Below are positions 58,052-64,000 of a stretch of 64,000 bases of DNA, in pieces (position 1 is the first letter of the stretch; each line of letters starts with the position of its first letter). The DNA is from an uncultured Marinicella sp. (GTDB lineage Bacteria > Pseudomonadota > Gammaproteobacteria > Xanthomonadales > Marinicellaceae), in the NCBI GenBank assembly GCA_947502595.1, contig CANNAM010000002.1:248001-312000 (forward strand), read 5' to 3'. Position numbers and translations under genes: made by a program. The notes under the pieces are model-generated. The model was not told the origin of the DNA. It searched no databases and worked only from the letters and a program-made list of their open reading frames with translations.

Positions 58052-58477
58052 ATGACAACTACAGTATCCACCCAATGGGTTAAAGACTATACATTCGTGA
58101 GTACCAATCAAGCACAACAAAGTATTGTGATGGACTCACCTGCAACCCAAGGTGCTGAAAAGATTGGGCCTTCCCCGATGGAAGTGGTGTTGATGGGTTT
58201 AAGTGCTTGTGCTGGGATTGATGTGAAATTAATTTTAAGCAAAGCCCAACAAAATTTCAGCGACATACAAGTCAAAGTCAGCGCTGATCGTCGCGAAGAA
58301 ATTCCCAGAATTTATACCGATATCAACTTACATTTTATTGTTACTGGTGTGGACCTCGCTGAAAAACAAGTGGCTCGTGCTATCAAGCTTTCAGCTGAGA
58401 AATACTGTTCGGTTTCTCACATGTTACAAGACACGGTAAACATTACTCACAGTTATGAGCTGGTAGCGGAAAAATAA
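58052..58477 (+). CDS. OsmC family peroxidase-like protein
   Basis: A 141-residue OsmC-fold protein. The two active-site Cys are in LSACAGIDVKLILSK near residue 51 and AEKYCSVSHMLQDT near 115, as in OsmC/Ohr-type hydroperoxide reductases. The sequence fits the YhfA-like subgroup rather than Ohr. AGGAG lies five bases ahead of the ATG, 12 bases after tolB, so it takes the place that pal normally has. A strong terminator follows. Confidence 0.87.
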   Translation: MTTTVSTQWVKDYTFVSTNQAQQSIVMDSPATQGAEKIGPSPMEVVLMGLSACAGIDVKLILSKAQQNFSDIQVKVSADRREEIPRIYTDINLHFIVTGVDLAEKQVARAIKLSAEKYCSVSHMLQDTVNITHSYELVAEK

Positions 58478-59176: not shown

Positions 59177-60952
59177 TTAGTCTTTATCAGTAAATTGCAG
59201 TTTGGCCAATTCAGCATATAAGCTGTTGTTATGAATCAGCTCCTCATGTTTACCCATTGCTACTATCTGGCCTTGATCCAGTACGATGATTTGGTCGGCT
59301 TTGCGGATGGTGGCCAGTCGATGGGCAATCACCAATGTGGTGCGTCCTTGCATGATGGTGTTCAAGGCTTCTTGAACCAACTTTTCGCTGTTGGCATCCA
59401 AGGCGCTGGTCGCTTCGTCTAACAACAGCACCGGTGGGTTGGTTAGGACTGCGCGTGCAATGGATAAGCGCTGAGCCTGACCGCCAGACAGCCTGACACC
59501 ACGTTCACCAAGGTAAGTGTCATAGCTGTGTTCCAACTGTTCTATAAATTCATCGGCATGGGCCAACCTGGCAGCTGCTTTGATTTCTTCATCGCTGGCA
59601 GCTGGTCGGCCATAGGCGATATTTTCACGGGCGGTGGTAGAAAAAATAGTGACATCCTGAGCCACCAAAGAAAATTGTGAGCGCAAGTCATTGAGTTGCA
59701 GTGTGTTTATGTCTGTGCCATCTAATTTTATGGTTCCAGTTTGTGGCTCATAAAAACGCATCAGCAGCTGGAATAGGGTGGACTTTCCCGACCCCGAAGG
59801 CCCAACCAAAGCCACTGTTTGACCGGGTTCCACAGAAAAAGAAATATCAGTTAACACATTCAAGTTGTTGCGGCTGGGATAAGCAAAGTTGAGGTTTTGT
59901 AGGCTGATGTTGCCCAATACAGGGGATTTTATCGGTATGGCTGCTGCACCGTCTTGGATGGTTGATTCGGTGTTCATCAGTTCAATGATGCGTTCCAGTG
60001 CGCCAGCGGCTTTTTTTAACTCACTCCACACGGTCGATAATGCACCCACTGAAGTTGCAGCCATAATGGCATACATCACAAATTGACTCAAAGTACCTGC
60101 GGTTATGTCGCCAGTAATGACGTCTTTGGCGCCCAACCACAACACAAACACAATCCCACCAAATATAACAAAGCCAACCAGCATCGACATGATGGTGGTC
60201 ATGCGGATTGAAGCAACAGCGGCTGTGAATGCATTGTTGATGGCTGCAATGAACTTATTGTTTTCTGCTTGTTCTTGTGCATAAGCTTGCACCGTGTGCA
60301 TGGCATTGATGGTTTCGGTCGCCAGTGCGGACGAGTCAGCGATGCGGTCTTGTTCGGCTTTGGACAGCTTTTGAATTTTACGTCCGGTTATGACAATCGG
60401 CAGTACCACCAAAGGGATGATAAAAGCAATGTACATGGCCAGCTTGGGCGCCGTGAAAACCATCATAAAAGTAGCCCCAAAAAATGTCACTGCTGAGCGC
60501 AAAGCAATTGAAAAGGTGCTACCAACCACAGTCTCAACCAGGGTAGTGTCGGTATTGATGCGCGACAGAATTTCTCCGGTTTTGGTTTTTTCAAAAAACT
60601 CTTGGGATTGAGTCATGACTTTGCCATACACCTGTTTTCGCAGGTCGGTAACCACCTTTTGGCCGATCCAAGAAACCCAAAAATAACGCAAAGAAGTGAA
60701 TAAAATCATCAATGATGAAACCACGAATACCAATAAAAAGTAATAAGACAAGGTGTCTTGGTTTTCCGCTGCAAAACCCAAATCGATCATTTGTTTGAAT
60801 GCCACCGGTATGGCTAAATTAGCTGCTGCACCAAGAAATAACAACAACAAAGCCAACATGATGTGTTTTTTGTAAGGCGTGATCAACGGTTTGATTAAAC
60901 GCAGATGATTTAAAGATGCCTTGTTATTTGTTGCTTCTGCTGGTGTATCCAT
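59177..60952 (-). CDS. MsbA/BmrA-like ABC exporter (fused permease and ATPase)
   Basis: A 591-residue half-transporter from ATG 60952 (AGGA nine bases ahead; a start at 60970 lacks one). The membrane domain begins LRLIKPLITPYKKHIMLALLLL. Walker A GPSGSGKST near residue 385, signature LSGGQAQRLSIARA, Walker B LLLDEATSALD and AHRLATI are intact. It belongs to the bacterial ABCB multidrug/lipid group and is not the Atm1 type of the exporter at 1348. The 5' end overlaps the hydrolase gene by 43 bases. Export of a compound that triggers the upstream MarR protein is possible but unproven. Confidence 0.87.
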   Translation of the reverse strand: MDTPAEATNNKASLNHLRLIKPLITPYKKHIMLALLLLFLGAAANLAIPVAFKQMIDLGFAAENQDTLSYYFLLVFVVSSLMILFTSLRYFWVSWIGQKVVTDLRKQVYGKVMTQSQEFFEKTKTGEILSRINTDTTLVETVVGSTFSIALRSAVTFFGATFMMVFTAPKLAMYIAFIIPLVVLPIVITGRKIQKLSKAEQDRIADSSALATETINAMHTVQAYAQEQAENNKFIAAINNAFTAAVASIRMTTIMSMLVGFVIFGGIVFVLWLGAKDVITGDITAGTLSQFVMYAIMAATSVGALSTVWSELKKAAGALERIIELMNTESTIQDGAAAIPIKSPVLGNISLQNLNFAYPSRNNLNVLTDISFSVEPGQTVALVGPSGSGKSTLFQLLMRFYEPQTGTIKLDGTDINTLQLNDLRSQFSLVAQDVTIFSTTARENIAYGRPAASDEEIKAAARLAHADEFIEQLEHSYDTYLGERGVRLSGGQAQRLSIARAVLTNPPVLLLDEATSALDANSEKLVQEALNTIMQGRTTLVIAHRLATIRKADQIIVLDQGQIVAMGKHEELIHNNSLYAELAKLQFTDKD

Positions 60953-61854
60953 GTTGCTGTTTCCTGCCATAGTTTGTTTGCTTTTGGCTTGAAAAAGCCA
61001 AAGTGCCCAATGCCGCTTAGACCCATCGATTTGGGGTCGATTATTCGTTTTTCTATGTGCCCATTGTCACGACCTGAAGCGCCACTTGTATGGCCAGCAG
61101 TGCCAAATTCTTGCAACAGGCCATCAATCGCTGCTTCTGGTGCCATGTCATCATCAGTAAAACCCAGGCTTAACAATGGCTTGTTAAACGCTTGCCAAGG
61201 GCTTAAATCAAAACCAAACTTAGGGTTAAACAAATAGTCTTTTTGTCGACCCCAGCTGGCCCATTGCTTGGCTGCGGCAGCTGGCCAAGGGTAGTTACCC
61301 AAACCCAACTTGTTGGCATCAAAGGTTAGTCCACGACTCATCCAAGGAATCAAAACATGCCACAACAGCATCAATTTAACTCGACCATTGAACGACCACC
61401 ATGGCCACAAGCGGTAATCCCCTTTTTGTGCTGTTACATGCAACAAACCATCAACCAAATCTAAATTCTCAGCAAAGCCAAGCAGTTGTCCACCAATGCT
61501 GTGTCCTAAGACCAACAATTTATCGGCTTTCAATGCAGACTTTGCCCAATTAATTACCGCAACTTGGTCCAGCCGACCCCATGCCTCAGCATCAGTGGGC
61601 ACACCATCGGGCAAGTTATGTAAGCCATCTTCCATGCCTCGATAGTTGTAGATAACCGCAGTTATGCCCTGATCGGCCATGTAAGCTGCAAACTCATGAT
61701 ACAGTCTGCGCTTAACGCCGATGGCTGGATTTATAATCAATACAGTAGAGTTTTCAGCACCAAACACAGCTAAATTAAGTTCGACTTCATCTGTTGTTAT
61801 GGTTTGCGCGTTAATGTACATATTCGGTGAGTCATTGTGGTGGTTCAAAATCAT
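60910..61854 (-). CDS. Alpha/beta hydrolase
   Basis: A hydrolase of about 314 residues (ATG 61854; 61821 and 61899 are other options). It shows the nucleophile elbow LVLGHSIGGQLLGFA near residue 125 (Ser), the oxyanion region VIYNYRGMEDG, the acidic residue in LGFTDDDMAPEA, and the catalytic His in LSGIGHFGFFKPKAN. It resembles serine aminopeptidase/monoacylglycerol lipase-type proteins. It overlaps the MarR gene at its start and the ABC gene at its end, so all three are one operon. The substrate is unknown. Confidence 0.78.
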   Translation of the reverse strand: MILNHHNDSPNMYINAQTITTDEVELNLAVFGAENSTVLIINPAIGVKRRLYHEFAAYMADQGITAVIYNYRGMEDGLHNLPDGVPTDAEAWGRLDQVAVINWAKSALKADKLLVLGHSIGGQLLGFAENLDLVDGLLHVTAQKGDYRLWPWWSFNGRVKLMLLWHVLIPWMSRGLTFDANKLGLGNYPWPAAAAKQWASWGRQKDYLFNPKFGFDLSPWQAFNKPLLSLGFTDDDMAPEAAIDGLLQEFGTAGHTSGASGRDNGHIEKRIIDPKSMGLSGIGHFGFFKPKANKLWQETATWIHQQKQQITRHL

Positions 61855-62386
61855 GTTCTCGACATAATTTAAGCTTTTCCTGGGTTGGTAAAAATTCACC
61901 GGTTAAACCACATTTAAAACTTTTGCTGTTATGCGGTTGGTGGAAACGACAACTCACACATTGTCCAAAACCTTGGTGGTTGTTTTGTTGTTGCCAGGCT
62001 TTGAGAAGTGACTGAATACCTGCCAGAATCACCGGTTCTTCTGTAGGCATGGTTACCATATGTTGGGCCATCTTGGCCAAACTTGATCGTCCTTTAGGAG
62101 TGAGAAAAATACGCACCACACGTTTGTCTTTTTCACATTTTTTCCTTTCTATGTGCCCACTGTTATCCATTATTTTTAAGCTTTGAGAAATACTGCCTTT
62201 GCTTTGTCCTAAGTACTCACTCAACGCTTGTGCAGTATTCGAATAGGCATTGCAAATTGATAAATATTGCAATATTTCAAGGTTAACCAATTGAAAACCT
62301 TCCGCGCTGACAGCTTGGCGCATTTGACTTTTATACAAGGAAGAAAGGCGCTCTAGCCAGATATCAATATTTTTTAACATGGGCAT
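61832..62386 (-). CDS. MarR-type regulator with C-terminal four-Cys domain
   Basis: A 184-residue protein. Residues about 10-125 are a MarR winged-helix (NLEILQYLSICNAYSNTAQAL, GQSKGSISQSLKIMDNSGHIERKK, LTPKGRSSLAKM). The remaining tail contains Cys143, Cys146, Cys159 and Cys175 as CVSCRFHQ, KCGLTGEF and LCREH, a likely zinc or iron-sulfur site that would make it a metal- or redox-responsive regulator. This tail type recurs in other MarR proteins with a Cys-rich CxxCRxF and CxLTG pattern; ligand unknown. It is divergent from the DUF4399 operon, with two palindromic sites between. Confidence 0.82.
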   Translation of the reverse strand: MPMLKNIDIWLERLSSLYKSQMRQAVSAEGFQLVNLEILQYLSICNAYSNTAQALSEYLGQSKGSISQSLKIMDNSGHIERKKCEKDKRVVRIFLTPKGRSSLAKMAQHMVTMPTEEPVILAGIQSLLKAWQQQNNHQGFGQCVSCRFHQPHNSKSFKCGLTGEFLPTQEKLKLCREHDFEPPQ

Positions 62387-62388
62387 AT

Positions 62389-62405
62389 AGTATCGTAACT
62401 AAACT
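62389..62405. promoter_or_regulatory. Putative MarR operator 1 (next to marR start)
   Basis: AGTATCGTAACTAAACT matches the perfect palindrome at 62446-62462 in 13 of 17 positions and lies two bases upstream of the MarR start codon, suited to autoregulation. Confidence 0.5.
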
Positions 62406-62408
62406 TTA

Positions 62409-62436
62409 TTGACAAGTTTAAAAAGTTAGGTATACT
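62409..62436 (+). promoter_or_regulatory. Consensus promoter of the DUF4399 operon
   Basis: TTGACA (62409-62414), a 16-base spacer and TATACT (62431-62436). It drives the plus-strand unit starting at 62493. Confidence 0.75.
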
Positions 62437-62445
62437 TGCAAATAA

Positions 62446-62462
62446 AGTTTAGATACTAAACT
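62446..62462. promoter_or_regulatory. Putative MarR operator 2 (perfect palindrome)
   Basis: AGTTTAGATACTAAACT is a perfect 7-3-7 inverted repeat just after the -10, around the expected transcription start. A bound MarR dimer would block the plus-strand promoter. Confidence 0.65.
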
Positions 62463-62492
62463 ATAATTTAATCAACTTAAAGGAGCACAATT

Positions 62493-62576
62493 ATGCATCA
62501 CTGTAAATTAGTAGAACTTGCAACACCACAGTTGGGTGCTAACAAGGCAATAACTTGGTTTAGGCCATCACTATGA
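62493..62576 (+). CDS. Possible 27-residue small protein at head of the DUF4399 operon
   Basis: AAAGGAG eight bases before an ATG opens a 27-codon frame (begins MHHCKLVELATPQLGANKAI) whose TGA overlaps the next ATG (ATGA). This is the only strong ribosome site in the leader, so the downstream gene may depend on its translation. I do not recognise it. Confidence 0.5.
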   Translation: MHHCKLVELATPQLGANKAITWFRPSL

Positions 62577-63037
62577 CTTGTTTAGCAACAACCACGCGAC
62601 CTTGGTTTGTTATGGGCATTTTAGCTGCTGCCCCAGTGCTGGCTGTCGAAACCGTGATGGCACCGAGCAGCGCGCAAGTTTACTTTGTTCATTTAAAAGC
62701 CGGTGATGAGGTAACCAGCCCATTCAAAGTGATGTTTGGCTTATCTGGTATGGGTGTGGCTCCAGCTGGGGTGAATCCCATTGATTTTAAGCAGGTTGGA
62801 CATCATCACTTATTCATCAATTCATCGATCAAACCAGGTATGTCTGGATTACCCATCCCTACAGACGATCAACACCTTCATTATGGTCAAGGTCAAACTG
62901 AAACAATGTTGAGCCTCAAACCGGGCACACATACCTTACAGTTGGTATTCTGCGACCCTCATCAGCGGCTTCACTACCCGGTAATTGCATCTGAAAAAAT
63001 AACCATTCAAGTGACAGAGAAAGACCATGAAAATTGA
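62573..63037 (+). CDS. DUF4399 domain exported protein
   Basis: A 154-residue protein with an N-terminal signal-like segment (about residues 9-25) and the DUF4399 pattern: GDEVTSPFKVMFGLSGMGVAPAGV, VGHHHLFINSSI, PIPTDDQHLHYGQGQTETMLSLKPGTHTLQLVF. Conserved His (HHH, QHLHYG) suggest metal binding. The function of DUF4399 is unknown. It is coupled by ATGA to the small ORF and overlaps DUF2024 by 11 bases. Confidence 0.85.
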   Translation: MTCLATTTRPWFVMGILAAAPVLAVETVMAPSSAQVYFVHLKAGDEVTSPFKVMFGLSGMGVAPAGVNPIDFKQVGHHHLFINSSIKPGMSGLPIPTDDQHLHYGQGQTETMLSLKPGTHTLQLVFCDPHQRLHYPVIASEKITIQVTEKDHEN

Positions 63038-63296
63038 TGTTTATGACAGTTATGCAACCTCAATGCGAGGTCATGTGATGCATTTTGATGTGTTTGTTGC
63101 TGCAACAACACCCGCCGAACAAGCTTTGTCTTTCGGCCGGCAATGGTTGACTTCTTTGGGTGAACCTGCCGAGGGTCTTAACCAATCACGATGTAAATAT
63201 TGCCACTCTGAAGTGGCCAACCCCGATGTGGAAAACCACATCAAATCCCACGGCTATTTCATCCTGCAGATGGAAGGCTGCCCAGCGCCTTATTAA
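63027..63296 (+). CDS. DUF2024 family protein
   Basis: An 89-residue protein, no signal. It begins MKIDVYDSYATSMRGHVMHFDVFV and has CKYCHSEVANPDVENHIKSHGYFI, a C-x2-C plus two-His arrangement that looks like a zinc site. The family function is unknown. It overlaps DUF4399 by 11 bases. Confidence 0.85.
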   Translation: MKIDVYDSYATSMRGHVMHFDVFVAATTPAEQALSFGRQWLTSLGEPAEGLNQSRCKYCHSEVANPDVENHIKSHGYFILQMEGCPAPY

Positions 63297-63348
63297 GGTG
63301 TTAATACAAAAATATGCAGGCTAAAAACCTGTTAACCGGAGAAATACA

Positions 63349-64000
63349 ATGAAAACTATTAAACCAAACAAGCTCAAATGGCCAGTTGTGCTGTGGTCTA
63401 CCAGTCTTATGGCCTCTGCTGTTTTTGCCCATGATGGAGGCGCTGTTAAAGCTGCTGGTATTCAAACAACCAGTGGCAACGCCAAACTGGCGGCATTTGA
63501 CATTGTTCAAGCCAACATTCAAGCCAGTGATAAGTGGCTTACTTTTGTTATGAGTGTGAGTAAAAAAGCAGGTAAAACAACCCCTACATCGACAGGTAAG
63601 CTGGCAGGCAGTGATGTGTTTTCTTATGTTTGGCCAACTAAAATAGACAGTTCAACGGTTGGCTTTGAAGCAGACCAGGGGATTTTATCTATGGCCATAA
63701 CTTCGCACCCTGATTTTGATGACACCCCGTTGTTTGATGAAAATGGCGACGGCAATTTGGATAATGATGGTACCGTTTGGCATGCACATTGGGTGGTTTT
63801 GGTGCCCGATAATGCCTGTGGTGAGGGCGCCCTTAAAGTCAAAGACATTCCAGCCGGCAGTACACCACAATTGCCATTAACTTGGCCGGGTTTACCCATA
63901 TTAATTGACAGTCCAGGCTATTCCCCGGTAATCAGTAAAACACAGGTCAGTGTCCGGGTGCCTTTCAAAAACGCCACAGCACTTAAAGGGGTTGCCTTTG
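63349..64000 (+). CDS. Secreted protein of unknown function (3' truncated by window)
   Basis: ATG 63349 with GGAG about seven bases ahead opens a frame that runs off the window after 217 codons. The signal peptide ends MASAVFAHDGG, so the product is exported. The visible part is not a family I can name; it has TGKLAGSDVFSYVWPTKIDS, a DFDDTPLFDENGDGNLDNDG acidic, Ca2+-like stretch and VWHAHWVVLVPDNACGEGALKVKD. Third or fourth gene of the MarR-flanked operon. Confidence 0.7.
   Translation, partial: MKTIKPNKLKWPVVLWSTSLMASAVFAHDGGAVKAAGIQTTSGNAKLAAFDIVQANIQASDKWLTFVMSVSKKAGKTTPTSTGKLAGSDVFSYVWPTKIDSSTVGFEADQGILSMAITSHPDFDDTPLFDENGDGNLDNDGTVWHAHWVVLVPDNACGEGALKVKDIPAGSTPQLPLTWPGLPILIDSPGYSPVISKTQVSVRVPFKNATALKGVAF

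Follow-up and report, generated by a model that had tools for sequence, protein, structure and literature searches.

A MarR-type regulator with a four-cysteine tail, paired predicted operators, and alternative partner genes in Marinicella and more distant genomes

Introduction

Local repressors of the MarR family (MarR_2) combine a common winged-helix core with a divergent gene layout and palindromic operators. The locus described here lies at the end of a 64,000-nucleotide stretch (hereafter, the window) of the 3.2-Mb draft genome of an uncultured Marinicella sp. (contig CANNAM010000002.1; G000:C2:248001-312000). It shares the core, the layout and, as judged from the sequence, the operators with these repressors but differs from them in that its MarR protein carries an extra C-terminal tail with four Cys residues (Cys4 tail). 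The marR gene is transcribed divergently from an operon that consists of a mini-open reading frame (mini-ORF), genes for DUF4399 and DUF2024 proteins, and the gene for a secreted protein without a known family, the third annotated gene product of the operon, for which we coined the name SECR; two related 17-bp sites lie in between. The gene order, the conserved pair of sites, the conservation of the tail, and the occupation of one operon slot by either SECR or a cytochrome are established at the level of sequence. They suggest an autoregulated local repressor module, in which the tail would sense nitric oxide (NO) or related oxidants and derepress the genes for periplasmic ligand-binding proteins; we give this reading an even chance of being correct.

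Regulators of the NsrR/Rrf2 type control NO defence through an Fe-S, cysteine-ligated centre. They offer a possible working likeness to the Cys4-tail MarR, although they belong to a different DNA-binding family and the cofactor of the latter is putative. The DUF2024 protein of the window is homologous to a solved protein (2hfq, E 9.5e-23); we know of no function for this family. Cytochromes c'-beta, such as McCP-beta (6hih) and TtCP-beta (7ead), are found in the same operon slot and with the same kind of regulator as SECR; there is no detectable sequence relation between the two, and they are positional alternatives, not homologues. A 2025 review describes the c'-beta proteins as having neither the lysine cross-link nor hydroxylamine oxidation, assigns them a proposed NO-binding role, and regards the exact function of every cytochrome c', be it biochemical or physiological, as still undetermined (PMC11928373).

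Gene order and control region

The features of the locus, in window coordinates, are the following.

61832-62386, minus strand: marR, 184 residues, Pfam MarR_2, with the Cys4 tail (Cys143, Cys146, Cys159, and Cys175)
62387-62415, minus strand: predicted marR promoter, TTGTCA-17-TACTAT, 9/12 to the consensus
62389-62405, no strand: predicted operator site 1, AGTATCGTAACTAAACT, identified from its sequence and its conservation across homologous regions
62409-62436, plus strand: predicted operon promoter, TTGACA-16-TATACT, 11/12 to the consensus
62446-62462, no strand: predicted operator site 2, AGTTTAGATACTAAACT, a perfect 7-3-7 palindrome located approximately at the predicted +1
62493-62576, plus strand: mini-ORF of 27 residues, MHHCKLVELATPQLGANKAITWFRPSL, behind AAGGAG, with its stop codon overlapping the DUF4399 start (ATGA)
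62573-63037, plus strand: DUF4399 protein, His-rich, with a signal peptide recognized by eye (Pfam E 1.5e-28)
63027-63296, plus strand: DUF2024 protein (Pfam E 5.4e-29)
63349-64000, plus strand: SECR, secreted, with a signal peptide recognized by eye; cut by the window

The full SECR gene (L007:6349-7116) encodes 255 residues and extends beyond the window to the equivalent of position 64116. The initial annotation, made from the sequence alone, had described a MarR protein with a Cys4 tail facing DUF4399, DUF2024, and an unrecognized secreted protein, and this description was borne out by the reading frames and by Pfam, where DUF4399 scored 99.4 bits (cut-off, 28) and DUF2024 scored 100.4 bits (cut-off, 27). 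It had also pointed out a Cys/His site in DUF2024, and His19, Cys56, Cys59, and His60 of this protein are invariant in 22/22 aligned sequences. The mini-ORF and the -35 box common to both promoters are additions to that description.

The same annotation had placed the perfect palindrome at the +1 of a consensus promoter and a 13/17 copy beside the marR start, and both placements hold. The two sites are identical at 13 of the 17 positions, and their starts (62389 and 62446) are 57 bp apart. The -35 boxes of the operon and of marR are formed by the same base pairs on opposite strands (TTGACAA/TTGTCAA), and the predicted marR -10 box overlaps site 1; the position of the TTGACA-16-TATACT match puts the predicted operon +1 at about site 2. 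The marR starts of the relatives agree with the second ATG (62380) of the window gene, in which case the marR mRNA would be nearly leaderless. Promoter-like sites are no more common here than in shuffled sequences (3 found versus 4.2 expected) and the promoters are consensus matches, so the weight of the control-region argument rests on conservation. The pattern AGTWTMGNNNCKAWACT occurs without mismatch at only these two sites in the whole genome; a search for a wider regulon in that genome found no further exact site, and allowing one mismatch added 3 sites, compared to 17 for a backward control pattern.

Paired operators in homologous loci

Three collections of genomes supplied the marR homologues with the Cys tail: those of relatives (present in 13 of 121; cut-off, E 1e-8), those of the class (24 of 369; cut-off, E 1e-20), and named genomes (the best 80 of 300 confirmed). 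This yielded 112 loci, of which 110 upstream regions were read (L094 and L095 were left out); 5 of the 112 were repeats of the same place, and their removal left 107 distinct loci and 105 distinct upstream regions.

Two copies of the operator, with the consensus palindrome AGTATCGACTCGATACT, were detected in 91/110 regions (87/105 distinct), as counted with a matrix that was trained on the scanned regions themselves. In the control, in which the shuffles preserve letter content only, both sites were found in 0/550 regions and a single site was found in 7/550. Among the 87 distinct two-site regions, the spacing is 55-56 bp in 50, site 1 begins 11 bp from the marR start in 54, and TTGACA or TTGCAA is found between the sites in 81. 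Outside the training of the matrix, four divergent marR loci on plasmids carry two sites each, with a spacing of 55 bp in Enterobacter and Pseudomonas, 53 bp in Lelliottia, and 37 bp in Phaeobacter, where the second site is weak (8.6 bits); the annotated Lelliottia marR frame has 112 residues only and is without the tail. The conservation of the palindrome in related genomes, on which the initial annotation had staked its case, was thus confirmed, and the paired-operator arrangement extends far beyond the genus. In three Methylococcaceae loci (L144, L159, and L168), site 1 is kept and no second site scores above the threshold; the divergent gene there encodes a small cytochrome c (by Pfam, run on L144 only), and the locus L173, with the same gene, has two sites.

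At the level of the genus, the picture is patchier. Of the 18 same-genus genomes searched, only 4 have MarR, DUF2024, and SECR together, 3 of these 4 have DUF4399 as well, and G001 retains a marR remnant only, a distribution which indicates that the module is easily lost or moved. It could also be taken to mean that an ordinary MarR gene lies by chance beside unrelated genes. Such a chance association is contradicted by the conservation of the operator pairs and by the recurrence of the partners in several phyla, and we consider it highly improbable.

The MarR regulator and its tail

The window protein exceeds the Pfam cut-off for MarR_2 (31.1 bits; cut-off, 27) and falls below that for PF01047 (19.8 bits; cut-off, 24.6), and its structural model matches a solved MarR protein (Foldseek E 5.4e-6). 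The tail has the form C-x2-C-x12-C-x15-C, and the spacing C-x2-C-x11/12-C-x15-C is seen in 100/107 distinct loci. All four tail Cys residues are invariant in both alignments (12 and 26 homologues); in the larger one, the invariant positions comprise Phe140, Gly141, Cys143, Cys146, Cys159, and Cys175. Among the matches listed (60 of 87 in PDB), the alignments with known structures stop by profile position 143, the exception being 3nqo, which reaches position 160. As for the chemistry of the tail, these data would fit any of an Fe-S centre, zinc, or bare thiols. The interpretation given in the initial annotation is partly supported, and its redox- or metal-responsive system fits the invariant tail Cys residues and the thiol-redox and haem neighbours described below.

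MarR proteins of a second type, whose tail is similar (CxxC...C...DCPEH), were noticed in the loci L233, L234, L241, L243, L041, L249, L250, and L253 to L255. Their genes are found near those for SECR, P460-family cytochromes, CxxC thioredoxin-like proteins, DUF2024, or redoxin and are often co-directional with them. No operator sites were seen in the stretches tested from two such loci with marR co-directional to SECR, and the second type probably uses another operator.

Partners of the regulator

SECR is the most common partner, being encoded in 55/107 distinct loci, followed by P460-family cytochromes (25/107), a CxxC thioredoxin-like protein with the motif YHAGCxxC, designated TRX3 (24/107), DUF2024 (22/107), and redoxin (20/107); CMD (CMD/AhpD-like) proteins and DUF4399 are found in 4/107 and 3/107 loci, respectively. 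The conservation of the gene set assumed in the initial annotation therefore holds for the MarR-SECR and MarR-cytochrome pairs, while DUF2024 is optional and DUF4399 is a genus-level accessory, not a core component.

SECR and the cytochrome do not occur together in any of the 107 loci, against 12.9 expected if they were independent (55 x 25 / 107), a contrast that is lessened by the relatedness of the loci. By their position, the two are alternatives in one operon slot. Repeated switching between them was considered and not adopted: a quick tree required 6 changes, versus a shuffled mean of ~22, and the well-supported branches force only 1.

The 107 loci were chosen by marR similarity, and a less selected count was obtained from an even draw of 369 genomes of the class, including the Marinicella genome itself. 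There, 18 of the 25 marR matches have a gene for a P460-family cytochrome (14), DUF2024 (5), or SECR (3) no more than 2.5 kb away. The draw contains 14 DUF2024 matches (one under the family cut-off), of which 3 are beside SECR (one of these neighbours is a 46-residue fragment) and 4 are beside a cytochrome; 3 of its 7 SECR matches are beside a Cys-tail marR.

The haem proteins of the slot are of several kinds. The CxxCH motif is present in 25/27 P460-family cytochrome rows (two repeats included). In the locus L087, whose product is the one P460-family partner compared with PDB apart from the Thermus gene, the best matches are 6hih (Methylococcus c'-beta, 1e-65), 7ead (Thermus, 2e-33), and 6hiu (P460, 7e-10), which identifies it, by sequence, as a cytochrome c'-beta rather than a P460. 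In Thermus thermophilus HB27, the TtCP-beta gene (7ead, E 1e-94) is followed, after 9 bp and on the same strand, by the gene for a Cys-tail MarR. Two Nitrospirota loci (L161 and L172) encode TRX3 together with a truncated globin that has a lipobox-like start, and one relative carries protoglobin and redoxin in the slot. Cytochrome c'-beta, truncated globin, and protoglobin represent three haem families that are not related to one another and bind small gases, and because they share the slot, NO is favoured over general oxidants as the signal. A convergent NnrS gene that adjoins the SECR-redoxin pair in Defluviimonas points the same way.

The remaining partners leave room for a different signal. 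The regulator could be a general sensor of thiol oxidants or peroxide, whose tail would form disulfides or lose zinc upon exposure to peroxide or reactive chlorine and whose operon would repair thiols and remove peroxides. The redoxin, CMD/AhpD-like, and CxxC thioredoxin-like partners are of the kind expected in that case, as are a Cu/Zn SOD partner in one locus and a thiol peroxidase (Tpx) gene adjoining the second-type marR in Nostoc; the CMD, redoxin, SOD, and Tpx neighbours suit peroxide as well as NO, and these peroxide-type helpers keep the oxidant alternative in play. In addition, a published study lists PA0942 of Pseudomonas aeruginosa among 'oxidative response genes' (PMC6335721). On the other hand, the partners that alternate are not catalases but haem proteins that bind ligands and that the review cited above ties to NO, an objection that is tempered by the peroxidase-like activity reported there for one cytochrome c'-beta (PMC11928373). 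The window MarR (whose first Cys is residue 45) is also without an N-terminal Cys of the OhrR kind; peroxide-sensing MarR proteins of the OhrR type are recognized by a reactive Cys in the N-terminal helix. Taken together, we view a general oxidant sensor as a possibility of secondary rank.

Several loci contain genes for the Rho modulator Rof. Nine loci, 7 of them from Colwellia, add an 85-residue gene, and the one product tested is a Rof-type Rho modulator. Rof, which modulates Rho termination, recurs in operons of this kind (L245, L246, and L131). A Pseudomonas aeruginosa plasmid record, whose stretch looks chromosomal, has marR divergent from thioredoxin, DUF2024, and Rof genes, which we take to be PA0942-PA0939 of strain PAO1, with PA0942 presumably the Pseudomonas member of this MarR kind. 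On an Enterobacter IncHI2 plasmid, marR faces a TRX3-like glutaredoxin-domain gene followed by Rof.

The SECR family

Neither Pfam nor NCBIfam contains a family that SECR matches at E up to 0.1. A 52-row profile of its homologues has no match among the PDB sequences at E up to 10, the 52 homologues give weak scattered matches to Pfam only (best E 0.018), and no match was found in phage records. As far as can be judged from such comparisons, SECR is an undescribed protein family. In its homologues, the conserved part is preceded by an apparent signal peptide or lipobox. His120, Asp122, Asp124, Asp125, the WHxHW motif, and Cys157 are invariant in 52/52 homologues, and Cys236 is present in 51/52; the three invariant His residues (120, 145, and 147) suggest a metal site. 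The fold is predicted to consist mainly of beta strands, and a Foldseek comparison of the model with PDB found nothing within E 0.001 (best, 0.039).

Several assignments were considered and rejected. A likeness of the model to CBM9 ranked 50th (TM 0.25) and was not used. A copper histidine-brace protein, which would have a His at its mature N terminus, is disfavoured: a His follows the crude-rule cleavage site in 23/52 homologues, and lipobox-like forms exist. An EF-like calcium loop (DENGDGN) is dispensable, being missing from a Sinorhizobium homologue with 49% identity. Finally, SECR is not recognizable as a cytochrome c'-beta: the window protein is without CxxCH, and its comparison with PDB sequences produced no match at E up to 10.

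The conserved residues raise the alternative that the regulator is metal responsive, in which case the tail would sense zinc, copper, or iron, and the same metal would be bound by the secreted proteins. The Cys4 tail itself, the invariant His and Asp residues of SECR, the His-rich DUF4399, and the Cys/His site of DUF2024 would all be in keeping with this. So would the genes behind SECR in the relative G030 (L039:1-3863, minus strand), where, after a gap and a small gene, an RND efflux pump, a fusion protein of the CusB/HlyD type, and an efflux protein of the outer membrane are encoded on the same strand, an arrangement that fits metal and speaks against a pure NO signal. Conversely, when the operon chains were clustered, no transporter or efflux family recurred in as many as three of them, and the window MarR scored only 18.9 of the 175 bits needed for the curated model of the zinc regulator AdcR. 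A metal signal thus appears unlikely.

Proposed mechanism and its significance

Returning to NO or a related oxidant as the signal, we infer DNA binding, repression, a metal centre, and an activity of SECR as follows. MarR dimers would bind the two 17-bp palindromes, with starts 57 bp apart, such that site 1 covers the marR -10 box, site 2 covers the start of the divergent operon, and one -35 box serves both promoters; the repressor would thereby hold both promoters down. The Cys4 tail would carry a metal or Fe-S centre, and modification of this centre by NO or a related oxidant would release the DNA. The operon would then yield a ligand-binding protein of the periplasm, which is SECR here, a cytochrome c'-beta in many other cases, and a globin in a few, along with thiol/peroxide helpers (DUF2024 and DUF4399 here; thioredoxin-like protein, redoxin, CMD, and Rof elsewhere). 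The purpose of the system, left blank in the initial annotation, may accordingly be taken more narrowly as a defence against nitrosative or oxidative stress.

Besides the efflux genes and the peroxide-type neighbours, several points weigh against this proposal. Seventeen of the 107 distinct loci hold none of the families sought, and 7 of the 25 marR matches in the even draw have no cytochrome, DUF2024, or SECR within 2.5 kb. The tail alone has no significant match among solved structures (PDB chains; best E 0.062), and the AlphaFold2 model, confident for the MarR core, is of low confidence at the tail end; that of SECR is of moderate confidence (pLDDT 69.5). Literature searches found no paper on the regulator itself, PA0942 appears in two papers solely as an entry in lists, and PA0939-PA0942 are unnamed in the main text of a Pseudomonas study of hypochlorous and hypothiocyanous acids (HOCl/HOSCN; PMC7950407, term search).

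It is conceivable, if rather doubtful at this stage, that SECR represents a new class of secreted metalloproteins that replaces cytochrome c'-beta in the periplasmic handling of NO (or a related species) and that the Cys4 tail serves as a sensor module by which MarR proteins of several phyla became dedicated switches for such proteins. SECR would then stand as an undescribed family whose task can be predicted, and a context would be available for both DUF2024 and Rof. With a dedicated regulator and a conserved operator, the role of cytochrome c' could be approached directly, via whatever releases the repressor, and a member of this kind is present in the tractable Thermus thermophilus HB27.

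Neighbouring genes and other observations

In the same-genus genomes G002, G004, and G008, the position of the mini-ORF is taken by a CMD/AhpD-like first gene (in G002, identified from its protein with Pfam and NCBIfam). The mini-ORF was considered as a remnant of such a gene and rejected, as blastn with 7-base words revealed no convincing similarity to the CMD region of the relatives; a search for CMD elsewhere in the Marinicella genome, run without a positive control, gave no match at E 1e-5.

A DUF2024 gene near SECR has an internal stop in G386:C30:7105-7317, and SECR is split over two separate frames in L106. MOSC-domain genes occur near L165 (3195-4034), L247, L250, and L254.

In the window, an alpha/beta hydrolase frame (60910-61830), on the minus strand like marR, starts where marR stops. 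The relatives G002 and G008 carry a convergent PepSY_TM gene adjoining marR in its place, and the hydrolase is therefore regarded as lying outside the module. An OsmC-like protein (Pfam 1.3e-20) is encoded at 58052-58477 on the plus strand, 3.8 kb from the module.

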